NCBI GenBank assembly: GCA_016214895.1
Contig: JACRMR010000020.1
Coordinates: 353,812-417,811, forward strand
Direction of reading: 5' to 3'
DNA: 64,000 bases
Source: a candidate division KSB1 bacterium
GTDB lineage: Bacteria; Electryoneota; RPQS01
Below the pieces are notes generated by a model, which was not told the origin of the DNA, searched no databases, and worked only from the letters and a program-made list of their open reading frames with translations. Shown in pieces: positions 30,830 to 47,000 of the stretch. How positions within the stretch are numbered: position 1 is the stretch's first letter; every line of letters begins with the position of its first letter. The translations under genes and the position numbers were made by a program.

Positions 30830-30858
30830 TTGATAAAAGTGTGGGAATTCGGTAAATT
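30830..30858 (+). promoter_or_regulatory. promoter of the mannoside/N-glycan operon
   Basis: TTGATA (30830-30835), a 17-base spacer and TAAATT (30853-30858), about 60 bp before the first gene. It is the only promoter-like site seen before the eight-gene run up to 43890. Confidence 0.55.
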
Positions 30859-30921
30859 GCAGGACACACGTGGTACGCGCGAAAGGACGCGGGGCCTGGC
30901 TCCGCGGTCAAGGAGTCAGCG

Positions 30922-31881
30922 GTGAGCCGACAGGTGGTTGCGGGAATCGATATCGGGGGCACCAATACGGCGATCGGCCTGGTTGACGTGACGGGGCAGT
31001 GCGTCGCGGCAGACCGGATGCGGACGACGGACTTCGATAGTCCGGCGGATTTTGTCGTTGCGGCGCTTCGCGCGTTGGACCGGATGCGGAGCGAGACGCC
31101 GCTGGCCGGGATCGGCGTGGGCGCTCCGAACGGCAACTTCTATCGGGGCTCGATTGAGTTTGCGCCGAATTTGCGGTGGAAGGGTGTAATTCCGCTGGCG
31201 GAGATGTTTCGCGAGCACGTTGCCGTCCCCGTGTTGTTGACGAACGACGCGAATGCCGCGGCGATCGGCGAAGGGATGTTCGGCGCGACGCGCGGTATGC
31301 GGGATTACATCGTGATCACGTTGGGGACCGGCGTGGGGAGCGGGATCGTCGTGAACGGGGAGTTGTTGTACGGACACGACGGCTTCGCCGGCGAAATCGG
31401 TCATACGATTTACGATCCGGCCGGGCGTGATTGCGGCTGCGGCCGGCGCGGATGTCTGGAGACCTATGCGTCGGCGGGCGGCCTCAAGCGCACGGTACTG
31501 GAGCTGCTCGCGACCCGCAACGCGGAGAGTGTCTTCCGCGCGCTGCCACCGACGGAAATCAGCTCGCTTCGCATCGCGGAGGCCGCGGCGAGCGGTGATA
31601 CCATCGCCTGCGAAGCCTTCGAATTTACGGGACGGGTCCTCGGTTTGAAGCTCGCGGATGCCATCGCGCACACGAGTCCGGAGGCGATTGTGCTGTTTGG
31701 CGGACTCGCCCAGGCGGGCGATCTGATTTTTGAGCCGACTCGCCGGTGGATGGAGGAATACACGCTGAATATCTATCAGGGAAAGGTCCGGCTGCTCGCG
31801 TCAGGACTCGCGCAGGAGAATGTCGCGGTGTTGGGGGCGGCGGCGCTGGTCTGGCAACAATTGAACCGGAACGCGCAATGA
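30922..31881 (+). CDS. ROK-family sugar kinase
   Basis: 319 residues, GTG start with AAGGAG 6 bases before it. ROK kinases phosphorylate glucose, mannose, N-acetylglucosamine or N-acetylmannosamine with ATP in the cytoplasm. Seen here: the phosphate loop DIGGTNTAIGLVD (residues 9-21), LTNDANAAAIGE, LGTGVGSGIVVNGEL, the sugar-binding GHDGFAGEIGHT, and the zinc motif CGCGRRGCLETYAS. There is no helix-turn-helix at the N-terminus, so it is a kinase and not a ROK repressor. As first gene of the operon it most likely phosphorylates the GlcNAc or mannose released by the GH130 and GH20 enzymes. The stop overlaps the next start (ATGA). Confidence 0.9.
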   Translation: MSRQVVAGIDIGGTNTAIGLVDVTGQCVAADRMRTTDFDSPADFVVAALRALDRMRSETPLAGIGVGAPNGNFYRGSIEFAPNLRWKGVIPLAEMFREHVAVPVLLTNDANAAAIGEGMFGATRGMRDYIVITLGTGVGSGIVVNGELLYGHDGFAGEIGHTIYDPAGRDCGCGRRGCLETYASAGGLKRTVLELLATRNAESVFRALPPTEISSLRIAEAAASGDTIACEAFEFTGRVLGLKLADAIAHTSPEAIVLFGGLAQAGDLIFEPTRRWMEEYTLNIYQGKVRLLASGLAQENVAVLGAAALVWQQLNRNAQ

Positions 31882-32942
31882 CAAGATTCACGATCGCCAT
31901 GATCGTCTGCTTGGCGGCCTGCGCTGTTGCGCCGGCCTCGCCGCGCAGCTACTTATGCTATCGCGCAACCCCGAATTCACCGCTGCGCATTGACGGTGTG
32001 CTTGATGATGGGGCTTGGCAGTTTGCCGAATGGACCGATTCGTTCGTGGATATTGAGGGAGATCTGAAGCCGCGCCCGCGCTTCCTGACGCGGGTGAAGA
32101 TGTTATGGGACGATTCCTGTTTCTACGTGGGCGCACAGCTTGAGGAGCCTGACATCTGGGCTACGATTCTCAAGCGCGACTCGATCATCTTCTACGACAA
32201 TGACTTTGAGATCTTTCTCGATCCGGACGGTGACAATCACGAATATGGTGAATTTGAGATCAATGCCCTGAATACGGGCTGGGATCTGTTCCTGCCGAAA
32301 CCGTACAAGGATGGCGGGCATGCCGACGACGCCTGGAACATTGACGGCATTCGGACTGCGGTATATGTCGACGGCACGCTCAACGGCTGTGGCGACGAAT
32401 GCCGGGGCTGGTCCGTGGAAATCGCGATGCCGTGGAGTGGTCTCGCACGTTGCAGCCATCGTTCGACGGCACCCAACGAGGGCGAGCAGTGGCGGGTAAA
32501 TTTTTCGCGCGTCGAATGGAAGAAGATTTGCGAAGACGGCCGGTATGTTAAGATCGCAGGGCTGCCGGAGGACAATTGGGTGTGGTCACCGCAGGGGGTG
32601 ATCAACATGCACAGGCCGGAGGCGTGGGGAATCGTGCAATTCACACGGCAGCCGTTTGGGACAGTCCATGTGAAGCCCGATCCGTTCGAGAAAGCCCGTG
32701 GAATACTGCAAGTAGTCTGCGACAGCCAAAAGGAGTTCCTTAGAGTGCATCAAGCATGGGCACCTAAGCTGTCCGCATTGGGCATAGCCAACTGGCTCGA
32801 TGAAGTTGCGCCGACGACAACAATGATGCTAACGAAGGATGGATTTGTGGCAACGCTTCGCGTCGGCGTGGACGATGTTGGGCCGGTCGATGCTCACATC
32901 AATCAGGACTCGCATTTCTGGACCGAACCGGTTTCCAAATAG
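31878..32942 (+). CDS. CBM9-domain secreted lipoprotein-like protein
   Basis: 354 residues from ATG 31878, which overlaps the kinase stop by four bases. The N-terminus MTRFTIAMIVCLAACAVAPAS has a LAAC lipobox (Cys at 15), so it may be lipid-anchored, though a plain signal peptide is also possible. Residues about 35-260 match carbohydrate-binding family 9: LRIDGVLDDGAWQFAEW, VKMLWDDSCFYVGAQLEEP, DNDFEIFLDPDGDNHEYGEFEINALNTGWDLF, and WSVEIAMPW. The last 100 residues are unassigned. In such operons CBM9 proteins usually catch glycans at the cell surface. No catalytic domain is recognised. Confidence 0.82.
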   Translation: MTRFTIAMIVCLAACAVAPASPRSYLCYRATPNSPLRIDGVLDDGAWQFAEWTDSFVDIEGDLKPRPRFLTRVKMLWDDSCFYVGAQLEEPDIWATILKRDSIIFYDNDFEIFLDPDGDNHEYGEFEINALNTGWDLFLPKPYKDGGHADDAWNIDGIRTAVYVDGTLNGCGDECRGWSVEIAMPWSGLARCSHRSTAPNEGEQWRVNFSRVEWKKICEDGRYVKIAGLPEDNWVWSPQGVINMHRPEAWGIVQFTRQPFGTVHVKPDPFEKARGILQVVCDSQKEFLRVHQAWAPKLSALGIANWLDEVAPTTTMMLTKDGFVATLRVGVDDVGPVDAHINQDSHFWTEPVSK

Positions 32943-32964
32943 GAAGCTGCATCACACAGCGTAA

Positions 32965-34245
32965 ATGCCCATGACCACTGATTCCCCGCCCAAAGCTTAC
33001 AGCTACCGGCTGGCGCTTATCATCATCACCGTGCTCTTTTTCATGTGGGGCTTTCTGACGGAGCTGAACGATATTCTCGTTCCCCACCTGAAGGGCGTCT
33101 TCGAGCTGAATTACACCAAGGTGATGTTGATACAGTTTGCATTTTTCGCGGCTTATCTGATCATGTCGATTCCGGCGGGGAAGCTGGTCGCGTGTGTGGG
33201 CTATCAGCGCGGAATTGTCGTGGGGTTGGCGACCGCGGGAGTGGGTGCGTTGTTGTTCTATCCGGCGGCGGCGCTACTATCGTACCCGCTGTTTCTCGGC
33301 GCGCTGTTTGTGTTGGCGACGGGCATCACCGTGCTGCAAGTGACGGCGAATCCGTATGCCGCGGTGCTGGGGAAACCGGAGACGGCCTCGAGTCGCTTGA
33401 ACTTTGCGCAGGCGGTCAACTCGCTGGGTCATACGAGCGCGCCGTTTATCGGCGGCTTGTTGATTCTGAGCACGGTGCCCCTGACTCCCGCTCAACTCGG
33501 CGGGCTACCGGAGGCAGAGCGGTATGCGCACCGGTTGGCCGAAGCTTCGGCCGTGCAGTTGCCGTATGTGGGCCTGGCCGTGACGCTCTTTCTGCTGGCG
33601 GCAATCATGTACGTGCTGCGGCTGCCGGTGATTGATACGGTCGAGGATCATCACGCGAAGTCGGCGAAGCTGCGTGACGCGCTCAAGCACCGGCATCTCA
33701 GGCTGGCGGCGGTAGCGATCTTTCTGTATGTGGGCGCGGAGGTTTCGATCGGCAGTTTTCTTGTGAACTTTTTTGGGCAGCCGGATATTGCGGCGTTGGC
33801 GCCGGCGGTGGCCGCGGGTTTTGTTTCGTACTATTGGGGCAGTGCAATGGTGGGGAGGTTTCTCGCGTCGGCCATTTTGCAGAAGCTGCGGCCGCGGCTG
33901 GTGTTGGCCGTTGCCGCATCATCCGCTGTGGCGCTGGTGCTGATCACGGTTGCCGCGACGGGGCCGATCGCCATGTGGACGATTATCGCCGTGGGGTTCT
34001 TCAATTCGGCCATGTTTCCGATTATTTTCACGCTGGGGATCGAAAATCTCGGCAAGCATACCAGTCAGGGCTCGAGCGTGCTGGTGATGGCGATTGTGGG
34101 GGGTGCGATCATTCCGGTGTTGCAAGGTGCGCTGGCGGACTCCTATGGAATCCACAAGGCGTTTCTGTTGCCGGCGCTCTGCTACTGTTACGTGATCTGG
34201 TATGCACTGAAAGGGTCGCGGCAGGCGGTCACCGCGGGAGGTTAA
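32965..34245 (+). CDS. FucP-type sugar:proton symporter (MFS)
   Basis: 426 residues, 12 hydrophobic segments. It matches the FHS branch of the major facilitator superfamily (L-fucose and glucose/galactose permeases): MWGFLTELNDILVPHLK in TM1, QVTANPYAAVLGKPETASSRLNFAQAVNSLGH in the middle (the NPY...N..Q..NS.G block), and GSFLVNFFG in the second half. The residues that bind sugar and proton in FucP (Asp and Glu in TM1 and TM4) fall where N and Q residues of these motifs lie, so the exact sugar cannot be read. In this operon mannose or a Man-GlcNAc unit are the likely cargo. No clear ribosome site; an in-frame ATG at 32971 is possible. Confidence 0.85.
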   Translation: MPMTTDSPPKAYSYRLALIIITVLFFMWGFLTELNDILVPHLKGVFELNYTKVMLIQFAFFAAYLIMSIPAGKLVACVGYQRGIVVGLATAGVGALLFYPAAALLSYPLFLGALFVLATGITVLQVTANPYAAVLGKPETASSRLNFAQAVNSLGHTSAPFIGGLLILSTVPLTPAQLGGLPEAERYAHRLAEASAVQLPYVGLAVTLFLLAAIMYVLRLPVIDTVEDHHAKSAKLRDALKHRHLRLAAVAIFLYVGAEVSIGSFLVNFFGQPDIAALAPAVAAGFVSYYWGSAMVGRFLASAILQKLRPRLVLAVAASSAVALVLITVAATGPIAMWTIIAVGFFNSAMFPIIFTLGIENLGKHTSQGSSVLVMAIVGGAIIPVLQGALADSYGIHKAFLLPALCYCYVIWYALKGSRQAVTAGG

Positions 34246-34249
34246 GCTC

Positions 34250-37200
34250 ATGAACAGACTTTCCGTTTCGCTCGTGCTGATGCTCTTGATGTCGGCGTCA
34301 GGCTCCGCACAACGCCCTCCGGCTGATTATGTAAACCCACGCCTCGGCACGGGCGGTCATGGGCACACGTATCCCGGGGCCACCGTGCCGTTCGGCATGG
34401 TTCAGCTTTCGCCCGACAATGGCAAGAACGGCTGGGATTGGTGCTCGGGGTATCATTGGTCCTGTGATACGATAGTGGGGTTCAGTCACACGCACTTGAG
34501 CGGTACGGGGTGCGCTGACTTGGGCGATATTCAGTTCACGCCGTGTACACGCACGCCGGTGCTCAGCTCTCCGACCGTAGCGACATTCTCGCATGCCGAT
34601 GAATTTGCGGGACCGGGGTACTATTCGGTGCGTCTTAGTGACAACGTATTCGTGGAGCTGACGGCAACGGAGCGGGTTGGGGTTCATCGCTACCACTTTG
34701 GTGCCGGGGATTCGGCCTTTGTGCGGATTGATCTGGGTTACGGGCAAGAGGATTCGCCGACGGAGTGTGGGCTGACGATTGAAAACGACTCCACCATTTC
34801 CGGCTACCGGTATTCGTCGGGCTGGTCTCCGGAGCAACGACTCTATTTTGTTGCGCGGTTCTCGCGTTCGCTTCGTGCCAGTGTCTTGCAACGCAACGAG
34901 CCGACGGTGACAGGCCTGCGTACGGCAACCGGCAAGGCGGTGCAAGCCGCACTCTATTTCGGCAACTCGCAGCAGCCGCTGCTGGCGAAGGTGGGAATCT
35001 CCGCGGTGTCGGTCGATGGAGCCAGACGGAATCTCGCGGCCGAACTGCCGGGTTGGGATTTCGACGAGTGTAGAGTTCGCGCGCGGGAGCATTGGAATGC
35101 GGCGCTGTCCAGAATCTCGGTGGAATCCGTTGATGAAGCTCAGCGGGTCACGTTCTACACAGCGCTTTACCATTCCTTCCTCGCGCCGACGCTCTTCTGC
35201 GACACGGACTCGACGTATCGGGGCGGCGACGGACTGGCGCATGACGGTGCGTTCCTGAATTACTGCACGTTTTCGCTTTGGGACACGTATCGCGCGGCGC
35301 ATCCGCTGTACACGATTGTGCAGCCCGAACGCGTCAACGATTTTGTGAACTCGCTGTTAGTCTTCCATGATCAGCACGGAAATCTCCCGGTCTGGTCGTT
35401 GGCGGGCGATGAAACGTGGTGCATGATCGGGTATCATGCCGTGCCGGTGATCGCCGACGCTTATCAGAAGGGCTTCACGGGATTTGATGCGCAACGGGCG
35501 TTGGCAGCGATGAAGGCGAGCGCGGGGGATGATCGCCGGGGGCTCGAATACTACAATCGGGTCACACCGCAACCGCTCGATACTTTGCTCGCGAAATTGA
35601 ACTCGCAGGTGATTGAGGTGCCGGAGGATTTCCGGAGGGCCGCGATCTCCGGCGACGCGGTAGTCCCCGGATATGCGGAGAGCATCGCGGGCGAAACGAT
35701 TCATTATCATTCGTCGTATCCGTACGTCAACGACGCTCTGCTCGTACGCGCGACGGACGGGACGATGAGCATCGAGTGGAAGACGGCGCCGCTGCCACGG
35801 AACATCGAACAACACGCGGTGACGTTCATGTGGGTGGCGGGGCATGCCACGTACAAAGGCGGACACCGCTTTGAGCTCTACGGCAACGGCGAGAAGTGGC
35901 TGAGCTTCACCACCGCCACGGATACTTCCCGACTCTGGTGGAGCGAGCAGGGCGCGAACGGGACGCAGTTGATCTTCTGCCCTTCCTACATAGATCAGTT
36001 TGACGATTTGTTTGGCGAATGCTATTTGACGGTGCCGACAAAGCTGCTGAAGAGGGGCGAGCCGCTGACACTGAAGATCGTTGGTGAGAATGGTAACTCA
36101 AGTGACTGGTACATGACGTTCCAGCATGCCAGTCGCGACACTCTCAGTCTCGTTCAGGAATACGCGCTCGCCGATGATGATGGAACCCTGTTTCAGATAT
36201 TTCGTCTGCAATATGAACACCTGACGGCCTCCGCCGCGGTCGCCGAACTCAACTACGGCCGCGGCCTGAGCAGTGTCGAGCATCGAACGCTGCCCGGCCT
36301 GAGTCACTGGGATTTCCCGGTTCAGGCGCTAACCGAACCTACGTCGGGCACGATTCGCATCGTCGGCGCAAACTCGCTGCCGCAGCATGAAGTAACGCTG
36401 CTCCCGGTCGTGCCCGTCAACTACATTCCGGGGGACAAGGAGCGCGAGTCGGTGTCGAAGTCGCTGGAGTACGCGTATGACGACTGGTGCATCGCGCAGC
36501 TGGCGAGTACGCTGGGAAGGACGGAAGACGCGGAGTACTTCCAGCAGCGCGCGGGATACTGGGAGAACTTGTACGACGGTGAAGCAGGCTTCATGCGGGG
36601 GAAGACGTTTGACGGAAAGTGGGTGTCGCCGTTCAATCCGCGGTTTGGCACGGGGAAGCAGCCGGAATACACCGAAGGCAACGCCTGGCAGTATAGCTGG
36701 TATGTGCCGCAGGATGTGCGGGGCCTGATCGAGATCATGGGCGGGAATGACAAGTTCGCGATGAAGCTGGACTGGTTGTTCACGCAGGACTCGGAAGTTG
36801 AAGACGAGGGCGCGACTGCGGACATGACAGGGTTGATCGGCCTCTATGCGCATGGAAATGAGCCCAGTCATCACATCGCGTACCTTTATGATTTCTGCGG
36901 GCAGCCGTGGAAGACACAGGAGTTGACGCGGCGGATCATGCGCGAATTCTACACGGATCAGATCGACGGACTCTGCGGAAACGAGGACTGCGGGCAGATG
37001 TCGGCGTGGTATGTGTTCAGCGCGTTGGGCTTCTATCCGGTGAATCCGGCGGATGGGAAGTATTGGATCGGGAGTCCGCTGGTAAGGCGCGCGGCGATTT
37101 CTGTTGGCGCGGGGCGAACGTTTGAGGTCATTGCCGATCACCAGAGCGAGCAGAACGTGTATATTCAGTCCGCGACGCTGAATGGCAGTGAGTTCGACCG

Positions 37201-37294
37201 CTTGTACATCACCCATGCGGAGCTGATGGGCGGCGGCGAGTTACGCTTTCAGATGGGACCGGAACCGAACCGAAGCTGGGGACATGTTGATTAG
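34250..37294 (+). CDS. GH92 exo-alpha-mannosidase with inserted domain
   Basis: 1014 residues, signal peptide 1-20 (ending SGSA). GH92 enzymes are Ca2+-dependent inverting alpha-mannosidases that trim N-glycans. The family blocks are all found: YVNPRLGTGGHGHTYPGA, GFSHTHLSGTG, FSLWDTYRAAHPL, PVWSLAGDETWCMIGYHAVPVI, ERESVSKSLEYAYDDWC (holding the catalytic Glu), NAWQYSWYVPQD, GNEPSHHIAYLYDF and GNEDCGQMSAWYVFSALGFYP. About 285 residues (437-722) are inserted between GLEYYNR and NYIPGDKERES, where canonical GH92 proteins run straight on. The insert holds beta-rich stretches (AVTFMWVAGHATYKGGHRFELY, LTLKIVGENGNSSDWYMTF) and may be a carbohydrate-binding or sandwich domain. GGGAGG lies before the ATG. 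Confidence 0.9.
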   Translation: MNRLSVSLVLMLLMSASGSAQRPPADYVNPRLGTGGHGHTYPGATVPFGMVQLSPDNGKNGWDWCSGYHWSCDTIVGFSHTHLSGTGCADLGDIQFTPCTRTPVLSSPTVATFSHADEFAGPGYYSVRLSDNVFVELTATERVGVHRYHFGAGDSAFVRIDLGYGQEDSPTECGLTIENDSTISGYRYSSGWSPEQRLYFVARFSRSLRASVLQRNEPTVTGLRTATGKAVQAALYFGNSQQPLLAKVGISAVSVDGARRNLAAELPGWDFDECRVRAREHWNAALSRISVESVDEAQRVTFYTALYHSFLAPTLFCDTDSTYRGGDGLAHDGAFLNYCTFSLWDTYRAAHPLYTIVQPERVNDFVNSLLVFHDQHGNLPVWSLAGDETWCMIGYHAVPVIADAYQKGFTGFDAQRALAAMKASAGDDRRGLEYYNRVTPQPLDTLLAKLNSQVIEVPEDFRRAAISGDAVVPGYAESIAGETIHYHSSYPYVNDALLVRATDGTMSIEWKTAPLPRNIEQHAVTFMWVAGHATYKGGHRFELYGNGEKWLSFTTATDTSRLWWSEQGANGTQLIFCPSYIDQFDDLFGECYLTVPTKLLKRGEPLTLKIVGENGNSSDWYMTFQHASRDTLSLVQEYALADDDGTLFQIFRLQYEHLTASAAVAELNYGRGLSSVEHRTLPGLSHWDFPVQALTEPTSGTIRIVGANSLPQHEVTLLPVVPVNYIPGDKERESVSKSLEYAYDDWCIAQLASTLGRTEDAEYFQQRAGYWENLYDGEAGFMRGKTFDGKWVSPFNPRFGTGKQPEYTEGNAWQYSWYVPQDVRGLIEIMGGNDKFAMKLDWLFTQDSEVEDEGATADMTGLIGLYAHGNEPSHHIAYLYDFCGQPWKTQELTRRIMREFYTDQIDGLCGNEDCGQMSAWYVFSALGFYPVNPADGKYWIGSPLVRRAAISVGAGRTFEVIADHQSEQNVYIQSATLNGSEFDRLYITHAELMGGGELRFQMGPEPNRSWGHVD

Positions 37295-37312
37295 CCACGG
37301 GCGGGCTGCCCC

Positions 37313-39250
37313 ATGACGCTGCGGCTGATTGATTGGCTGATTGTCGTGCTCAGCATGATCGGGCTGGTCGCGTTGGTGCGCTTCAGCCGGCATTTCATGC
37401 GGAGCGTTACGGACTTTCTCTCCGCGGGGCGGTCCGCGGGGCGCTACCTCCTGAGTGTATCGCAGGGGATGTCGGCGCTGGGCTCGATCACGATCGTGGG
37501 CATGTGGGAGATGAATTACGTCGCGGGGTTCTCGCTCCGGTGGTGGGAATTCACGATGGGCGTGGTGCTGCTTGCGATCACGGTTTCGGGTTGGGTGATT
37601 TACCGGTTTCGGCAGACGCGCGCGCTCACGGTAGCGCAGTTTTTCGAGATTCGCTACAGCCGCCGGTTTCGCATATTCGCGGGACTGCTTGCATTTACGT
37701 CAGGCATCGTGAATTTCGGCATTTTCCCCGCGGTGGGCGCGCGGTTTTTCATCTACTTCTGCGGGCTGCCGGAGTCGCTGGTGATGGGGCCCTTCGCGCT
37801 GCCGATGCTGGCGGTGGTGATGGCGATCTTCCTGTCGATCGCGCTCTACTTCTTGTTTGCGGGGGGGCAGATTGCCGTAATGCTCACGGAGTTCGTGCAG
37901 GGGATCTTTGTGAACGCGGTGTTCATCCTGATTGTCATCTACTTCCTCGTGATTGTCGATTGGGCACAGATTCTGGCGGCGGTTTCCACGGCACCGCCGG
38001 ACGCCTCGCTGATCAATCCGTATCACACGAGCCGGGTCAAGGACTTCAATCTCTGGTATTTCCTGATCGGAGTGGTCGGAGTGATCTACGGGAAGATGTC
38101 CTGGCAGGGGACGCAGGCGTACAACTCGTCGGCGCGCACGGCGCACGAGGCGAAGATGGGCGAGGTGCTCGGCAATCTGCGCGACATTCCGAAATGGTTG
38201 ATGCTGGTGTTTGTGCCGGTGATCGCTTACACGGTGCTGCATCATCCAGCGTTCAGCGCGCCGACCGGTGCGGTGGAGTCCGTGCTCAGCGGTGTCGATT
38301 CTGAAGCGCTTCGCAGTCAACTGCGGGTTCCGCTGGTGCTGCGCGAGCTGCTCCCGGTGGGGTTCATGGGCGCGCTGGCGACGGTGATGTTGATGGCGAC
38401 GATCGGGACGCACGACAGCTATTTGCATTCGTGGGGCAGCATTTTCGTGCAGGACGTGGTCATGCCGTTTCGGAAGCGGCCGTTCGCGCCGGAGCAGCAT
38501 CTGCGGGTTTTGCGGGGGTCGATCGTCGGCGTGTGCGTGTTCATTTTCTTGTTCAGTCTGGTATTTCAACAGAGCGAGTATATCTTTCTCTTTTTTGCGA
38601 TTACGGGAGCGATCTTCACGGGCGGCTCGGGGGCGGTGATCATCGGCGGCTTGTACTGGAAGCGCGGCACCACGCCGGCGGCGTGGAGTGCGCTGATCAC
38701 GGGGTCCACCATCGCGGTCGGCGGGATTGTCATTCATCAGTTGGATTCCGATTTTTTCATTAACGGTCAGATGTTCTGGGGGATTGCGATGGCGGTTTCC
38801 TCTCTCGTCTATGTGCTGGTGTCACTGTTCGACAAGCGACCGAGTTTTGACATGGACAGCCTGTTGCATCGCGGCGCGCACGCCATCGCCGGCGAGACCC
38901 GGCTGGTCGACGAGGTCCCGCAACGGGGCTTGCGAATGCTGGGCATGGGGCAGGAGTTTACGCGCGGGGACAAGCTGATTTACCTGATTGCCTATGCCTG
39001 GACTGCCGTCTGGACCATGGCCTTTCTGGCGGGCAGCTACTTCAATCTTACCGGCGAGGTGTCCGACAGCGCTTGGCTGACATTCTGGCGGACGTTTATC
39101 TTGGTAAACGTTGCCGCATCGCTCCTGATTATCGTTTGGTTTACCGTCGGCGGTCTGCGCGATTTGAAGGAGATGTTGCGGCTCTTGAGAACGATGAAAC
39201 GTGATCACGGCGATGACGGATTTGTGCGGAGGGCGGAAGAGCGTGAGTGA
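37313..39250 (+). CDS. sodium:solute symporter (SSS family)
   Basis: 645 residues with about 14-15 hydrophobic segments. It starts 18 bp after the GH92 gene. The family loop DFLSAGRSAGRYLLSVSQGMSALGSITIVGMWEMNY and the TM8 region ATVMLMATIGTHDSYLHSWGSIFVQDVV (Na2-site position) are present. It belongs to a different branch from the SSS protein at 331-2070; the long C-terminal tail (about 60 residues after the last helix) and the internal loop FDKRPSFDMDSLLHRG are distinctive. Placed between alpha-mannosidase and mannoside phosphorylase genes, it is the best candidate for uptake of the GH92 product, perhaps a Man-GlcNAc2 core, but the substrate is inferred from context only. Confidence 0.88.
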   Translation: MTLRLIDWLIVVLSMIGLVALVRFSRHFMRSVTDFLSAGRSAGRYLLSVSQGMSALGSITIVGMWEMNYVAGFSLRWWEFTMGVVLLAITVSGWVIYRFRQTRALTVAQFFEIRYSRRFRIFAGLLAFTSGIVNFGIFPAVGARFFIYFCGLPESLVMGPFALPMLAVVMAIFLSIALYFLFAGGQIAVMLTEFVQGIFVNAVFILIVIYFLVIVDWAQILAAVSTAPPDASLINPYHTSRVKDFNLWYFLIGVVGVIYGKMSWQGTQAYNSSARTAHEAKMGEVLGNLRDIPKWLMLVFVPVIAYTVLHHPAFSAPTGAVESVLSGVDSEALRSQLRVPLVLRELLPVGFMGALATVMLMATIGTHDSYLHSWGSIFVQDVVMPFRKRPFAPEQHLRVLRGSIVGVCVFIFLFSLVFQQSEYIFLFFAITGAIFTGGSGAVIIGGLYWKRGTTPAAWSALITGSTIAVGGIVIHQLDSDFFINGQMFWGIAMAVSSLVYVLVSLFDKRPSFDMDSLLHRGAHAIAGETRLVDEVPQRGLRMLGMGQEFTRGDKLIYLIAYAWTAVWTMAFLAGSYFNLTGEVSDSAWLTFWRTFILVNVAASLLIIVWFTVGGLRDLKEMLRLLRTMKRDHGDDGFVRRAEERE

Positions 39251-40220
39251 CGCCGGCTTGCTGCGGGCCGCGGCCAATCCGATCTTGACGCGAAGGGACA
39301 TCCCGCCGTTGACACCGGACTTGGCGGACGTCAGCGCCGTGTTTAATCCCGGAGCGATCCGGCTCGGAGACGAGACGCTTTTGCTGCTGCGAGTGCAGAA
39401 TCGCGGGCGAGAGACATCGTTCATGATTGCACGCAGTACAGACGGGGAACGCTTTACCGTGGATCGTGAACGGGTGCGGATTATCGGACTGGAGCAGGTT
39501 TCCACACCGATCTACCACGTCTATGACGCGCGGCTGACGCAGATCGACGGCGTGCTGTATGCGATGGTGGCCATCGACATGGAGGACGGCTGCAAGTTAG
39601 GACTGTTGAAATCGAGGACGCCGCATGAGTACGAGTTTGTCGGATTGGTTTCCGCCGACGACAATCGCAACGGCGTACTCTTTCCCGAACGGATTGACGG
39701 CAAGTACTTGCGGCTGGATCGGCCAAACCGGGTGCAACTTGCGGGCGGACCGGTCAGTGGGAACGCAATCTGGCTCAGCGAATCCGCCGACCTCGCGGGC
39801 TGGAAGCCTGTGACATCGTTGATCGCCGGTCGGTTTCACTATTGGGATGAACTGGTCGGCGCAGGTCCGCCACCGATCAGGACGCGGCATGGCTGGCTGT
39901 GCATTTATCACGGCGTGGCCACACATTTTGCGAGCAGCAATATCTATCAGGCAGGTGTGTTCGTGCTGGATCTGGCGGATCCGACGCAAGTCGTAGCGCG
40001 GAGTCGCTGCAACATCCTCGAACCGCGCGAATCGTATGAGTTGACCGGACAAGTTCCGAATGTTGTGTTTCCCAGCGGAGCCGTCGTGCCGGGCGCGCAG
40101 GATGGCGTCGCGGAAGTGGATGATCTTGTGTTTGTCTATTACGGTGCGGCGGACACGGTCGTCGGTTTGGCGACGGCTACCGTCGGTTCGCTATTGCGCG
40201 CGGCGGGACTCGCGCTGTGA
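39243..40220 (+). CDS. GH130 beta-mannoside phosphorylase
   Basis: 325 residues, taken from GTG 39243, which overlaps the symporter stop by eight bases and has GGAGGG 9 bases upstream; an ATG at 39201 would add 14 residues inside that gene. GH130 enzymes split beta-1,4- or beta-1,2-mannosidic bonds with phosphate, giving mannose 1-phosphate; one branch acts on Man-beta-1,4-GlcNAc from N-glycans. Family blocks: FNPGAIRLGDETLLLLRVQNRGRETS, a catalytic-Asp block (VYDARLTQIDGVLYAM, where most members read DPR), RLDRPNRVQ and GWLCIYHGVA. No signal peptide, so it is cytoplasmic. The subfamily cannot be settled by eye. Confidence 0.85.
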   Translation: MSDAGLLRAAANPILTRRDIPPLTPDLADVSAVFNPGAIRLGDETLLLLRVQNRGRETSFMIARSTDGERFTVDRERVRIIGLEQVSTPIYHVYDARLTQIDGVLYAMVAIDMEDGCKLGLLKSRTPHEYEFVGLVSADDNRNGVLFPERIDGKYLRLDRPNRVQLAGGPVSGNAIWLSESADLAGWKPVTSLIAGRFHYWDELVGAGPPPIRTRHGWLCIYHGVATHFASSNIYQAGVFVLDLADPTQVVARSRCNILEPRESYELTGQVPNVVFPSGAVVPGAQDGVAEVDDLVFVYYGAADTVVGLATATVGSLLRAAGLAL

Positions 40221-41842
40221 CTCGCTATCCGATCATACCCCGGCCGGCCTCGTTGCAGGCACAGTCAGGAGAGTTCGTACTCGATCGATCGACGGTGCTT
40301 ACGGTGTTGAGTGCTTCACTACTCAGGTCCTCAGTGATCCAGCGCTTTGCCGATCACGTTCGGCAGCGCTCAGGTTTTCCCTTTCCGGTTGTTCAGGGTA
40401 GCGGATGGCGCGCGGGGTCAATCGGAATCGAGCTCACTGCAAACGCGTCATTGCAGCGCGAGGCGTATAGTCTGGAGATTGGGGAGCAAGCGGTGCAGAT
40501 TCGCGCCGGGGCGGAGGTCGGTATTCAGCATGCCCTGCAGACGCTGTTACAGTTGCTGCCGCCGGAGGTATTCTCAACCACGGCACACGGTGCATTGAAG
40601 TGGACCGTACCGTGCGCGGAGATTCGTGATACGCCGCAATTTCCGTGGCGGGGAGCTCAGCTTGATGTGAGCCGCCACTTCTTCCCCGCTCCGTTCATCG
40701 AGCGCTATCTTGACATCATGGCGATGCACAAGCTGAACATGTTTCACTGGCATCTGACGGACGATCAGGGCTGGCGGATCGAGATCCGGCGGCGACCGGA
40801 GTTGACGCAGATCGGCGCGTGGCGGGCGTCGCGCACGGAGCATTGGAATGACCGTGCGGCGCAGCGCTCGCACGAGTTATCCGACTACGGCGGGTTCTAC
40901 ACGCAGGAGCAGGTTCGCGGAATCGTGGCGTACGCGCAGGAACGCGGAATCACCATCGTGCCCGAGATCGAGATGCCCGGGCACAGCATGGCCGCATTGG
41001 CGACTTACCCGGAGCTGTCCTGCAGCGGCGGTCCGTTCACGGTGCCGACGGGGCAATACTGGCCGATCACGAATTTGCTGTGCGCGGGGAAGGAAACGGT
41101 ATTTGATTTCCTCGACGATGTGCTGACTGAGGTTTGCGCTTTGTTCCCGGGGCCGTACGTTCACATCGGCGGAGACGAGGCCGACAAGCAAGTGTGGGAA
41201 AGTTGTCCACGATGTCAGCAGCGGATTGAGGATGAGGGCTTGCGAAACGAGGCGGAATTGCAGGGTTGGTTTATGGAACGAGTCGCGACGATTTTGAAGA
41301 GTCAGGGCAAGCGCGCGGTGGGCTGGGAAGAGCTGTTGGACGAGTGGGAACTTCCCGACGCCGTCGTGATGTCATGGAAAGGTCCGGAGGCAGGGATGGA
41401 AGCGGCCGGCGCGGGGCATGACGTGGTCATGTGTCCCTTGTCACACTGCTACTTTGATCACTATCAAGGTTCCCCGGAGCGCGAACCACTCGCCTTTGGG
41501 GGGTACACGCCGCTTGAGAAGGTCTTCGAGTTTGAACCAGTGCCGTCCGCGCTTGAGGGGGCGGCGGCCGCGCACATTCTCGGCGCGCAGGCGAACCTGT
41601 GGACCGAGTTCATACCGACAACTGAGCACGCCGAATACATGTTGTTGCCGCGCCTGGCGGCCTTCGCCGAAGTGGTATGGTCACCGGGCGGAAAGCGGGA
41701 CTGGGCCGAGTTTGAGCAGCGGCTCCGGGTGATGCGACGCAGGTATCAGGCGGTTGGTTTGAAGTGCGCGGATGTCGGTGAACGAATTCCGTCGCTGGAA
41801 CGAGTGGCGGCGGAAAACCTAAGCAACGGAGGTGTGGCATGA
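40217..41842 (+). CDS. GH20 beta-N-acetylhexosaminidase, cytoplasmic
   Basis: 541 residues, GTG start overlapping the GH130 stop by four bases. GH20 removes terminal beta-linked GlcNAc or GalNAc by substrate-assisted catalysis. N-terminal GH20b domain about 1-135, then the TIM barrel: RGAQLDVSRHFF, KLNMFHWHLTDDQGWRIEI, VPEIEMPGHSMAAL and the catalytic pair D320-E321 in YVHIGGDEADK; tryptophans VGWEELL, VMSWKG and LWTEFIP line the site as usual. No signal peptide is present, unlike most GH20 enzymes, so the substrate must be brought in first. That fits splitting of a GlcNAc-GlcNAc (chitobiose) core after mannose removal. The stop overlaps the next start (ATGA). Confidence 0.9.
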   Translation: MTRYPIIPRPASLQAQSGEFVLDRSTVLTVLSASLLRSSVIQRFADHVRQRSGFPFPVVQGSGWRAGSIGIELTANASLQREAYSLEIGEQAVQIRAGAEVGIQHALQTLLQLLPPEVFSTTAHGALKWTVPCAEIRDTPQFPWRGAQLDVSRHFFPAPFIERYLDIMAMHKLNMFHWHLTDDQGWRIEIRRRPELTQIGAWRASRTEHWNDRAAQRSHELSDYGGFYTQEQVRGIVAYAQERGITIVPEIEMPGHSMAALATYPELSCSGGPFTVPTGQYWPITNLLCAGKETVFDFLDDVLTEVCALFPGPYVHIGGDEADKQVWESCPRCQQRIEDEGLRNEAELQGWFMERVATILKSQGKRAVGWEELLDEWELPDAVVMSWKGPEAGMEAAGAGHDVVMCPLSHCYFDHYQGSPEREPLAFGGYTPLEKVFEFEPVPSALEGAAAAHILGAQANLWTEFIPTTEHAEYMLLPRLAAFAEVVWSPGGKRDWAEFEQRLRVMRRRYQAVGLKCADVGERIPSLERVAAENLSNGGVA

Positions 41843-43890
41843 GTCACACGATGAAGATTGCCATCGGTCTGCTTGCGGTGCTGACGAGTACTCCGCTGTG
41901 GGCGGCCTGGCCCGGGGCGGCGGATACCAATCTGGTCATTTGCGATCGCACGGGAGAACAGGCGACGCCTAAGGTCATGGCGTTGAGTGACGGGGGCTGT
42001 TATGTCTGTTGGTATGACTGGGCCTCGGGGAATTGGGATGTGTATTTGCAGCGGCTTGGTGCGAATGGCGTTCCGCAGTGGGCGCACAACGGGATTTTGA
42101 TCAGCCACCATCCGCAGGAGAGCTGGATCACGGACTTCGATCTGGCGGTGGATGATCAGGACTATGCGATCGTGGCGATCAACGACATTCGCGCGGGCGG
42201 CGACCGCGACATCTATGCGTATCGCGTCAGTCCGGCGGGCGAGCTGATCTGGGGTGCGGACGGACTTACCCTGTCGGACAACGGGGACTTCGAGCCGGAT
42301 CCCCGGATTTGCGTCACCACGTCCGGCTCGATTGTGTTCGCATGGCAGCAGGCGGCGGACGCGGGGAACATGATCAATCTACGCCGCGTCACACCGAATG
42401 GTCAGGATGAGTGGAGCCCGGCGGTACGCACGCTGACCAGCGCCTACGGTGTTTCGATTCCGCGCGTTGTTTCCGATAGCGGTGACGGCGTGATCGTGCA
42501 GTACCTCGTGCATCGTGGTTCGCAGATTTGGAGTCCGAAGCACATTTTCGCGCAACGCTTTGACGCGCTCGGTGAGGTCTTGTGGGGCGATACCGGTGTC
42601 GTGGTTTCGTCGGCGGGGGGCTTGGGCATGGCGGCCAAGCCGGAGCTTATTCCCGACCTGTTGAACGGCGCCTATTGCTACTGGTATGACTCGCATGATG
42701 CGAATCGGCTGCATGTTTACGCGCAGCACTTGCAGTCGGACGGCTCGCCGGAGTGGGCGCTGAACGGGGTGCAGGCGTCGCTGGCGGCGAACGAGCTGCA
42801 GATGGACCCGGCGGCGGCCTTCGTCGGCGAGACCGGAGATCTGATCCTGTACTACATGACCGCCGACTTGAATCAAAGCACGTGGGGCTTAGGCGGTCAG
42901 GCGATTCGCGCCGGGGCGCGGCAGTGGGGCGACAACGGAATTGCCTTTGAAGCACTCAGTTCACAGCAACGACTCCATGTGCGGGCGGTCGCGCATCCGC
43001 AGGGCACGGTATGTGTCTTTGAGGAGTTTGTGCCGGGGAGCGGACTGCACAGCCTGGTAAAGGCGTTCCGTGCGGATACTCAGGGCGGTCTGACCTGGCC
43101 CGGGTCGCCGCGCACGTTGTGCTCGGTCGTCAGCGAGAAGGGCCGGATGAACGCCGCACTGAACAGTGCGGCGATGACCATCGCGGTGTGGTCGGACAAG
43201 CGCAACGACTCCAGCGGCGATATTTACGTGCAGAATGTGAACGTGGACGGATCGCTGGGTGACGCGAATCCGAATCAACCGCCAGCGAGCTTCAACCTGA
43301 TCGCGCCCGCGGATGACGACACGTTGCAGTCGTATGAGTTCGCTTGTGTCTGGCATGCATCGACGGATCCCGATGGGGATGACGTCCGCTACTCGCTGCA
43401 ATTTCATGTGTACTACGGCGAGGGATTCGACGTTACGTTTGCCGATGTGGCGGATACGATCCGCGCCACCTCCTGGGAGGAGATTACAGGACTTCCCGAG
43501 CACGATTACATCGCGGTGGACTGGTGGGTGTCAGCGATCGCGGGCGGTGACACGGTGCGCTCGACAGAAGTCTGGCGCTTCGTAATTCCGCAGCAGGGGA
43601 CGGCGGAGGATTTGCCGGTCGTTCCACGAGCCATGGACCTGCTGACCGCCTATCCGAATCCGTTTAATCCCTCCACGACCATTCGCTTGTCGCTGGAGGG
43701 GGCAAGCCGGGTTTCGATCGCGGTGTATGATGTGACGGGACGGCGGGTTGCGCAACTGCATGAAGGACTGCTGCCCGCAGGCGAGCAGGAGTTCACGCTC
43801 GACGCAACGGGATTGACGGCGGGTGTGTATTTCTGCCGGATGGCGAGTGACGCAGCGCCGCGGACGGTGAAGTTGTTGCTGCTGAGGTGA
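41839..43890 (+). CDS. secreted beta-propeller-like protein with sorting domain
   Basis: 683 residues, last gene of the operon, overlapping the GH20 stop by four bases. Signal peptide about 1-22 (ending WAA). A repeat of the form D-x-Y-x-Q-R-x5-G-x3-W-x2-N-G occurs at least five times (WDVYLQRLGANGVPQWAHNG, RDIYAYRVSPAGELIWGADG, KHIFAQRFDALGEVLWGDTG, LHVYAQHLQSDGSPEWALNG, GDIYVQNVNVDG), as expected for propeller blades. Residues about 475-590 look like a fibronectin-type domain (FNLIAPADDDTLQSYEFACVWHASTDPDGD). The end is the sorting domain LTAYPNPFNPSTTIRLSL. It is likely a surface protein helping the operon's enzymes, perhaps by binding glycans. No catalytic motif is seen. Confidence 0.82.
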   Translation: MSHTMKIAIGLLAVLTSTPLWAAWPGAADTNLVICDRTGEQATPKVMALSDGGCYVCWYDWASGNWDVYLQRLGANGVPQWAHNGILISHHPQESWITDFDLAVDDQDYAIVAINDIRAGGDRDIYAYRVSPAGELIWGADGLTLSDNGDFEPDPRICVTTSGSIVFAWQQAADAGNMINLRRVTPNGQDEWSPAVRTLTSAYGVSIPRVVSDSGDGVIVQYLVHRGSQIWSPKHIFAQRFDALGEVLWGDTGVVVSSAGGLGMAAKPELIPDLLNGAYCYWYDSHDANRLHVYAQHLQSDGSPEWALNGVQASLAANELQMDPAAAFVGETGDLILYYMTADLNQSTWGLGGQAIRAGARQWGDNGIAFEALSSQQRLHVRAVAHPQGTVCVFEEFVPGSGLHSLVKAFRADTQGGLTWPGSPRTLCSVVSEKGRMNAALNSAAMTIAVWSDKRNDSSGDIYVQNVNVDGSLGDANPNQPPASFNLIAPADDDTLQSYEFACVWHASTDPDGDDVRYSLQFHVYYGEGFDVTFADVADTIRATSWEEITGLPEHDYIAVDWWVSAIAGGDTVRSTEVWRFVIPQQGTAEDLPVVPRAMDLLTAYPNPFNPSTTIRLSLEGASRVSIAVYDVTGRRVAQLHEGLLPAGEQEFTLDATGLTAGVYFCRMASDAAPRTVKLLLLR

Positions 43891-43952
43891 GGCAGAGATG
43901 AGCCCCCCCTGCCTTCCCGAAAGGCGGACACTCGGGAGGGAGACTCGAAATA

Positions 43953-43989
43953 GCAGAGGCGGCCACACCGGGCCGCCTCTGCACGTTTT
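43953..43989. terminator. operon terminator, shared by convergent genes
   Basis: GCAGAGGCGGCC (43953-43964) pairs perfectly with GGCCGCCTCTGC (43971-43982), followed by ACGTTTTG. On the minus strand it lies after the 1430-residue protein gene, with a TATTTC run beyond the stem. Confidence 0.82.
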
Positions 43990-44006
43990 GAGGAAATGAG
44001 ATTCGC

Positions 44007-47000
44007 TTACGGCATGATCGAGCAGTCGCAGATCACGACGTAATTCTTGTAGAGTTCTCCGGTCCAGACCGTTTCCCACTCGACATCGCCGGGGGCGCCG
44101 ACGAGCATCGCGGCCTCTTCGACCCACTCGGGGCTGGGCGGGACGGTCGTGTGATTCGGCAATACCGTGCTGAAGATGCGATACGCTCCGGCCTGCGGCG
44201 CGCGCCAGTAGAGATGAATCTCGCGTTGCAGGGAGAGGTCGTCGTAGCGGTGCAGGGCGGTCAGGTTTGTGACGGCGCTGCAGGGCGGTTGGACGAAGGT
44301 AACGCAGTAGCAGACCGGCTCGATATTCTGATTGGAGTATTCGAACTCGAGCACCATCATGTGGAACGGTGGTTCGTAGTGCACGTCCCAGCGATAGTCC
44401 CACGGGCCGCCCGGTGTGCAGGCATGCGGCTCGCAGTTGTCCACTGCGGGGCCGTAACAGCCGGGGGTGATGATGAACTGCGGGATCGCGGGCGCGTTGT
44501 TGAGCGGAATGTGGTACACATCGTGGCAGACTTCGAAGCACCACGACATGCCCGGATCCATACCGTAGGGCGGGAGATTGGTGTAGGTGCATTCGCCGCC
44601 GGTGTCAACATTTTCGAGATACATGTTCGGGAACTCGCCGACGACCACGACCGGCTCCACGTACCACTGATCGGGCAGCGGCGGATTGACGAAGTCATAG
44701 TGGACAATGAGGTCGAAGGTCTCGCCGGGCATGAAGTCGCCGCTGGCGACCAACACTTCGATGTGGTGCCACTGCTCGTTCACGCCGGAGAACTCGCTGA
44801 CGTACGGGCCGATGAAGGCTCCCGCGGGTGACGAGAAGACGGTGATGAAGCCGCTGGCATTGCAGAGATCACCGGACGGACTGGACACGGCCACGGATGC
44901 ATCGAGGTGCTGATACATTTCATCGAGCGCGGCGAGCACGTGCGGTTCGCAGAGCGGCATCACGCCGTGATAGCTCACGCAGTAGCAGACGGGTTCGATG
45001 AAGGGGTTGGAGTACTCGAATTCGAGCCACCACTGGGCTCCGTCGAAGTAGGTGTGATAGGTGAAGTCCTCGGGACCGCCCGGAGTGCAGGGGATGGGTG
45101 GCGGGCAGATCGGCAAGTCGCAGCCGGGGACCACGCTGATAACGGGCCTTACGGAGGGTGGCGCGTCAAGGGCAATTTGATAGATGCGGTGGCAGACGAC
45201 GAAGCAAGCCGACTGGCCAAGCATCATCATGGGCGGCACCATGTCCCCGCTGCACGGCGCGGGATTCCACCACGGATCGACGCCGCCGGTGACGGCTTGG
45301 GCCATCTCCACGGCGCGCACGGGCCGGATGTCCGGGTGATCGAAGGTTGCCTCGGCGGACATCTCGAAGTTCGCGAAGGGGGGCAGTGTGCCGGGCGAGG
45401 CGGGGATCTCGAAATGACGTGGTTCGGTGGACAGATTGTCGAACGGGACCATCAGTGTCATGTCGGGATCGGCGTGGACATTGAGTACTCCACTCACGAC
45501 GTATGCCGGATTTGAGAGCCGTAACGTCGCATCCAGCGATTGGTGGGTCGGATCAAGCGCGATGAGCAGCCAGGGTTCGACATCGATCCCGGACGAATAT
45601 CCGACTGTCAAGCAGTAGCAGGCCGGTTCATTCAGCGGATTCGAATGTTCGAACTCAAGGATCCATGATCCACCCACGATTAACACGTCCGCGCGATAGC
45701 TCCAGGAGTCACCCGGATTGCACAGGGGATCGTTGCAGGATGTCACCGGTCCGCAACCGGGTTGGACCGACACGGTCGGGATTCCCGGTTCCGGGAATTC
45801 GATTGGGATATGGTAGATGTCGTGACAGGCGATGACACACTCGGGCTGGCCGAAGCGCAAGACCGCGGGGATGGATTCCAGGCCGCCGGCCGCGCATTCG
45901 CCACCGGCATCCACGAGTTGCAAGCCGCCGGTCGGGGTTACCATGACGTCTTCGCTGAGGATGCGGGACGGCAGCGGCGGATCGGTGTAATGGAATTCGG
46001 CGATCAATTGGAACGATTCGCCGGGGGTGAATGATCCGCGCGCGACGGGGGGTCGCACGGTATGCCAATCGTACCACACATCGAAGAAGGACTCGACGTA
46101 GCCACCGACCCAGCCTCCGGGCGGAGCGGTCCGCACGGTGACGAAGCCATCCACCGGAGCCACCGGTCCTCCGAGATCCCACGCGGTCACGCTAAGATCG
46201 AACGTTTGACGTTTTTCGTCAAGCGCTGCGAGTTCGTGAGTCTCGACGGTGGTCTGGTAGCCGACGAAAGTAACACAGTAGCAGACGGGTTCGATGAACT
46301 GATTGGAGTACTCGAAGTGCAGCGTCCAGACACCACCGGCTTCGGTGAACCAGTACATATAGTCCGCCGGACCGCCGGGGATACAGGCGACCGGTGGGAC
46401 ACAGGGCGGTTCACAGCCGGGTACCACGGTGATGATGGGCTGACCGGCACCCGCCGGCGCGTTCATGGTCACTTCGTAGATGTCGTGGCAGACGACGAAG
46501 CAGGCGGCTTCACCCACGTTCATCATCGGTGGCACGAAGTCACCGGTGCACGGCTGATCGGGATCATCGAAGGGGTGGATCATGCCCATGCCGTCCACGA
46601 TCACCCACTCGTTGTAGGTTACGGGCGGGATGATCGGATCATTGAAGGTAATCGTGCTGACGAGCTGGAAGGCCTCGCCGGGCAGGTAGCAGGTCGCGGG
46701 GTAAGGATATTCCCAGTGTCGCGGCGCCATGTAAATATCGAAGAAGCTCTCGACATTCCACCACGGATCATCGCAGAGCGGCTGTTCGCGGATATCGAGG
46801 GTGCCGTTCAGCGGTATCGTCGGGCTGGAGCCCCACAGGGAAACGTGGACAGACTGGGTGGTCTCGTCGAACACCGAGAGCGCGTACGGTTCCACCGGGA
46901 CCATGACGAGGCCGTTGTACGTGACGCAGTAGCAAACGGGTTCGATGGCGGGGTTGGAGTATTCGAAGCGCAAGTACCAATGCGCGCCGATGCGTTCGGT

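Follow-up and report, generated by a model that had tools for sequence, protein, structure and literature searches.

Gene content and organization of the locus

The locus was studied in a window of 64,000 nucleotides from the genome of a candidate division KSB1 bacterium (3.2 Mb, 98% complete), a member of an FCB-group phylum that also contains candidate division LCP-89. Eight tightly packed open reading frames, all on the + strand, occupy positions 30922-43890, and their families were assigned with Pfam and NCBIfam. The original prediction had described an eight-gene operon with start/stop overlaps; all eight reading frames were recovered where it had placed them, with successive gaps of -4, 22, 4, 18, -50, -4 and -4 nt. 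The -50 nt overlap, between the SSS and GH130 genes, is smaller with the in-frame ATG 39213 as the GH130 start codon; the start is probably this codon or a later one. GC3 values of 0.71-0.80 (that of the CBM9 gene computed on an over-extended reading frame) support the genes as truly coding. The families named from the sequence were borne out as ROK, CBM9_1, MFS, GH92N with GH92, SSF, GH130, GH20b with GH20 and, in the eighth gene, a T9SS tail detected by Pfam.

Seven of these genes recur in identical order, ROK-CBM9-MFS-GH92-SSS-GH130-GH20, in genome G007, which belongs to the same family but another genus, and this recurrence argues that the arrangement is not due to chance. The eighth gene (41839-43890) encodes a T9SS-tailed secreted protein (PF18962, 38 bits; TIGR04183, 33 bits, over its cut-off) and is absent from the G007 locus (L033). 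The surface protein of the original prediction is secreted and joins the transcription unit by overlap, but it is not a conserved part of it.

A single promoter had been proposed upstream. The weak sigma-70-like match TTGATA-17-TAAATT at 30830-30858 (+ strand, 9 of 12 positions) did not exceed regional chance, with 9 sites found and 4.5 expected, and the promoter is not established. At the 3' end, fold energy identified a strong hairpin at 43953-43982 (-32.8 kcal/mol, z = -8.0, on the + strand; -27.8 kcal/mol, z -5.2, on the - strand). The structure behind the proposed single terminator is real, but it sits between convergent genes and has a short U run only; it is likely a two-way terminator. 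The convergent gene, on the opposite strand at 44007-48299, encodes a 1430-aa exported repeat protein.

Glycoside hydrolases of the operon

The GH92 alpha-mannosidase (34250-37294; PF17678 and PF07971, 599 bits) has a signal peptide, a GH92N domain and a GH92 catalytic domain that is split by an extra domain. The closest solved structures are 6f8z and 7zgm, the latter a GH92 structure from work on Bacteroides massiliensis N-glycan use. The inserted domain (35612-36364, + strand, residues about 455-705) belongs to no Pfam family. It is predicted, with moderate confidence (pLDDT 73), to be a beta-sandwich, and a fold search returned only low-TM beta-sandwich matches (0.35 or less). GH38-like proteins encoded in related loci begin with the same domain (L041:2944-3651 and L060:445-1212). 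That alpha-mannosidases of two unrelated families within this gene cluster have one accessory domain in common suggests that they share a ligand.

The GH130 protein (39201-40220; PF04041, 131.5 bits, cut-off 26) is a candidate beta-mannoside phosphorylase. In a small tree its clade was monophyletic with a support of 0.82, the nearest enzymes being the beta-1,4 phosphorylases TM1225, RaMP2 and UhgbMP; no characterised member of the clade was found among solved structures. The catalytic Asp is preceded by Tyr in the operon GH130 and in 88 of 92 clade sequences, a residue that marks the GH130_1/2 (beta-1,4) type, Glu being found in the GH130_NC and beta-1,2 types (PMC4599007). GH130 phosphorylases bind phosphate with three bases (PMC4599007). 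In the operon GH130, equivalents of UhgbMP R150, R168 and H231 are present, the two arginines also in nearly all clade members. The K212 equivalent is Leu, and the position varies across the clade (L, F, R, N); apart from D104, the UhgbMP residue numbers used here are presumed ones. Directly before this position the clade has an invariant W-D-E, and after it the P-x-E-T motif has become P-x-K/R-T (81 K and 7 R of 90 sequences; PPxRT in the operon). Two of the three phosphate-binding bases are therefore kept, and an Arg/Lys is newly present near the third. Judged from these residues, GH130 likely acts by phosphorolysis, with one base moved or lost. Its predicted substrate is Man-beta-1,4-GlcNAc.

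The GH20 beta-N-acetylhexosaminidase (40217-41842; PF00728, 396 bits) contains the HIGGDE motif and has no clear signal peptide.

Distribution of the GH130 clade and its gene neighbourhoods

A protein search of 147 genomes with the operon GH130 returned 13 genomes, its own included, at 50-65% identity or more, followed by a gap down to 43% and below. The clade was found in 9 of the 39 genomes of the phylum, which indicates an accessory trait. Scanning named genomes with a profile of the clade yielded 364 relatives. About 16 phylum-level groups are represented among the best 80 of these, which include Ignavibacteria, Bacteroidota, Aminicenantes, Zixibacteria, KSB1, LCP-89, Calditrichaeota, Acidobacteriota, Gemmatimonadota, Planctomycetota, Kiritimatiellae, Lentisphaerae, Eisenbacteria, Krumholzibacteriota, Cloacimonadota, Neomarinimicrobiota and Caldisericaceae.

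In distant relatives GH130, CBM9 and SSS stay together while the remaining genes vary. With confident scores, SSS was present in 58 and CBM9 in 54 of 88 distinct clade loci, and one or both adjoin GH130 in 55 of the 59 clade loci of at least 12 kb. Neither was detected in any of the 18 GH130 loci outside the clade, using the same profiles and the same genome set. Families associated with N-glycans were found among the 88 loci as GH38 (25), GH20 (13), GH125 (12), GH92 (9), PNGase F (5) and GH99 (2), and further partners were GH94 (30) and GH3 (12); related loci share ancestry, so these co-occurrence counts are not independent. Among the loci of at least 12 kb, neither an alpha-mannosidase family nor a PNGase family was seen in 27 of 59. 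GH20 and GH94 never occur together (0 of 88 loci, p = 0.0035), as expected if both perform the same chitobiose step, and GH92 and GH38 never share a locus (p = 0.06); both tests ignore shared ancestry. The GH94 gene lies directly beside GH130 in its 30 loci (within L049-L128), and by profile scores GH94 of these sister loci is closer to cellobiose than to chitobiose phosphorylases. Typing of 20 further neighbours by Pfam gave one sialidase-like (BNR_2) protein and, beside one cluster, one mannose-6-phosphate isomerase; GH5, GH26 and GH113 were absent among them.

The use of N-glycan-type mannosides, as originally predicted, is strengthened because PNGase F, GH99, GH125, GH38, GH92 and either GH20 or GH94 adjoin the GH130, SSS and CBM9 genes of the relatives, although the proposed route had to be modified, as described below.

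Two other gene types recur in these neighbourhoods. Proteins of the endonuclease/exonuclease/phosphatase family, mostly exported, were observed beside the cluster (L033:18918-19820, L037:7811-8764, L043:15915-16778 and L042:13059-14228). A uroporphyrinogen decarboxylase-like gene, named only from inspection of its sequence, follows GH130 in Aminicenantes and Acidobacteriota (L056, L065, L066, L068, L081, L100 and L106) and might be a mis-named pathway enzyme.

Localization and transport

Localization was assessed by a simple leader-peptide scan. Leaders were detected in 1 of 88 GH130, 0 of 26 GH38 and 0 of 30 GH94 proteins, indicating a cytoplasmic location, and in 9 of 9 GH92, 2 of 2 GH99, 47 of 54 CBM9 and 4 of 5 PNGase F proteins, indicating export. 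The scan agrees with the predicted placement of GH92 outside and of GH130, GH20 and the kinase inside. The pattern implies two forms of the cluster: either GH92 trims outside and import follows, or import comes first and GH38 trims inside. The SSS gene is kept in both.

The CBM9-type sugar-binding protein (31878-32942; PF06452, 36 bits) had been placed outside on account of a signal peptide. The leader was found, and it ends in a lipobox-like LAAC, so that the protein is better described as probably a lipoprotein; the CBM9 of several relatives carries a lipobox as well. The alignment of 17 members showed 39-59% identity.

The MFS permease (32965-34245) had been described as FucP-type, but it fell below the cut-off of the FucP model (267.3 against 280.4 bits) and passed that of the GluP model (TIGR01272, 331.2 against 202.6 bits), thus being a GluP-type hexose permease; it also scored under the NagP cut-off (188 against 625 bits). 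The ROK sugar kinase (30922-31881; PF00480, 209 bits; TIGR00744, 220 bits, under its cut-off) has the glucokinases 2qm1 and 3vgk as best PDB matches, and a 65% identical gene stands at the equivalent place in G007. It is glucokinase-like and probably acts on mannose and/or GlcNAc.

The SSS-family symporter (37313-39250; PF00474, 72.3 bits, cut-off 22.8) scored under the cut-off of TIGR00813. Homologues 54-78% identical to it adjoin GH130 in most clade loci, and it is a candidate importer of the trimmed core. SSS sugar symporters such as vSGLT (2xq2, 3dh4) share the family PF00474 with it but are very distant (33 bits), and the substrate proposed here would be a di- or trisaccharide. Import of the core by either SSS or MFS had been considered originally. 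As a GluP-type hexose porter rather than a FucP-type one, the MFS protein more plausibly carries the free mannose released by GH92, which leaves as core carrier the SSS protein, since it stays linked to GH130 where MFS and GH92 are gone. The MFS gene and a closely related ROK kinase accompany secreted GH92 both in the window operon and in G007, and two lanes are accordingly envisaged: MFS and ROK would serve mannose, and SSS, GH130 and GH20 the core.

Functions encoded elsewhere in the genome

The genome was searched family by family. As predicted, the operon contains neither a SusC/SusD pair nor an endo-glycosidase, and SusD_RagB, GH18 and GH85 were absent from the whole genome. Five TonB receptors are encoded outside the operon, one of them at 8672-10861 of the window, 20 kb upstream, and could provide outer-membrane entry in trans.

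The search for a PNGase gave a divided answer. A PNGase F-like protein with a T9SS tail is encoded on another contig of the same genome (L048:9322-10719, G000:C25; PF09113, 57 bits); alignment to 3pms and 1pnf showed the equivalents of the three catalytic acids, D60, E118 and E206, all present, and SprA, a T9SS gene, is also encoded in the genome. The PNGase F-like gene is not co-distributed with the operon: of 9 same-family genomes without GH130, 7 have relatives of it, and it is absent from G007, which has the operon. It was accordingly rejected as the established missing first cut and kept as a candidate.

NagA was not found in the genome. A PF01182 match considered as NagB (C20:122676-123326; L146) was rejected, as its context beside opcA, zwf and gnd is that of 6-phosphogluconolactonase. 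An operon predicted to release GlcNAc thus occurs in a genome in which the usual GlcNAc catabolism was not detected (no NagA and no true NagB).

Alternative explanations

Four other readings were weighed. GH130 could be an inverting hydrolase (beta-mannosidase) rather than a phosphorylase, in which case the pathway would save no ATP. In hydrolytic GH130s, acidic residues take the place of the phosphorylase bases (PMC4599007), and the loss of the K212 equivalent just after an invariant W-D-E would fit; the conservation of the R150 and R168 equivalents across nearly the whole clade and the basic residue of the PPxKT motif (K or R in the counts given above) make this unlikely. Use of plant mannan or glucomannan, with GH130 splitting mannosyl-glucose or mannobiose from beta-mannan digestion, is quite unlikely: GH92 and GH20 of the operon would have no role on mannan, relatives carry PNGase F, GH99, GH125 and GH38, and GH5, GH26 and GH113 were all missing from the 20 additional neighbours that were typed. 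In its favour, such enzymes are known from GH130_1 and GH130_2 (PMC8950772), the nearest PDB entry of GH130 is the beta-1,4-mannooligosaccharide phosphorylase TM1225, cellobiose phosphorylase is the closest match of GH94 in the sister loci, and single loci carry an alpha-galactosidase (L092) or an acetyl xylan esterase (L122).

The cluster could also recycle envelope glycans of the cell itself or of its neighbours that contain Man-beta-1,4-GlcNAc or a similar unit, instead of eukaryotic N-glycans. Many of the hosts live in sediment and groundwater, the operon has no endo-enzyme and the clade is patchy in the phylum (9/39), but patchiness equally fits an accessory catabolic trait, and the PNGase F-type genes within the cluster in five relatives render recycling very unlikely. 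Yeast mannan is a substrate of many GH92 enzymes, which raises the use of yeast or fungal mannan and mannoprotein, GH92 removing alpha-mannose side chains and GH130 acting on a beta-mannoside cap. Some GH130 enzymes do act on the beta-1,2-mannose of Candida mannan (PMC4599007), yet in the operon GH130 the catalytic Asp follows a Tyr instead of a Glu, the protein falls outside the beta-1,2 groups, no GH76 was seen, and the linkage to GH20 and PNGase F points to a GlcNAc core, so that this reading is highly improbable.

Proposed pathway and comparison with known systems

The locus is best explained, with fair though not full confidence, as an operon that breaks down the Man-beta-1,4-GlcNAc core of N-glycans, in which an SSS-CBM9-GH130 trio for uptake and phosphorolysis stands in place of SusC/SusD. 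GH92, exported by its leader and with the activity expected of its family, would trim released or still-bound high-mannose glycans outside the cytoplasm, and CBM9 may hold the oligosaccharide at the membrane. Free mannose would enter through the GluP-type MFS and be phosphorylated by the ROK kinase. The strict linkage of SSS suggests this symporter as the way in for the beta-mannosyl core (ManGlcNAc or ManGlcNAc2). GH130 and GH20, assigned by family and lacking leaders, would then complete the process in the cytoplasm, the former phosphorolysing the core, with mannose-1-phosphate and either GlcNAc or chitobiose as products, and the latter splitting chitobiose.

Phosphorolysis of the N-glycan core by GH130 is already known: BT1033 of Bacteroides thetaiotaomicron and UhgbMP are Man-beta-1,4-GlcNAc/N-glycan core phosphorylases of GH130_2 (PMC8950772). 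Both resemble the present system in combining a cytoplasmic GH130 with alpha-mannosidase and hexosaminidase steps, and UhgbMP shares with it the Tyr-Asp pair and the equivalents of R150, R168 and H231. They differ in that the operon GH130 forms a separate clade, is about 30-35% identical, has K212 replaced and is linked to SSS and CBM9; the BT1033 cluster presumably has GH92 and a transporter. The Bacteroides loci for plant and mammalian N-glycans (PMC9522356, PMC10154615) offer comparable toolkits of PNGase, GH92, GH130, GH20 and GH3 but use SusC/SusD, which the operon lacks, the genome being without SusD. The operon GH92 is close to 7zgm, the B. massiliensis structure mentioned above. The Nix cluster of Xanthomonas campestris, outside Bacteroides, has GH92, GH130 and GH20 types as here; it is based on a TonB receptor, with GH18, GH2 and GH3, and so differs from the SSS-CBM9 trio. 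An SSS-CBM9-GH130 cluster was not found described in a search of openly available papers, which is weak evidence of novelty.

More tentatively, and with less than even confidence, the SSS-CBM9-GH130 trio may be an undescribed, SusCD-independent means of N-glycan uptake in ~16 phylum-level groups, with SSS importing whole N-glycan fragments, either trimmed cores where GH92 acts outside or still alpha-mannosylated ones where the sole alpha-mannosidase is the cytoplasmic GH38. The steps would have two interchangeable finishes each, GH92 outside or GH38 inside, and GH20 or GH94. The data point to a testable transporter, the SSS clade, and to a GH130 clade whose phosphate site is altered. Most of what is known about N-glycan breakdown comes from gut Bacteroides and a small number of pathogens. 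If the proposal is true, compact and modular N-glycan use would be common in uncultured bacteria of sediments, aquifers and lakes, among them Aminicenantes, Ignavibacteria, Zixibacteria, KSB1, Acidobacteriota, Phycisphaerae and others, and the sugars of glycoproteins would be a widespread carbon source for such bacteria.
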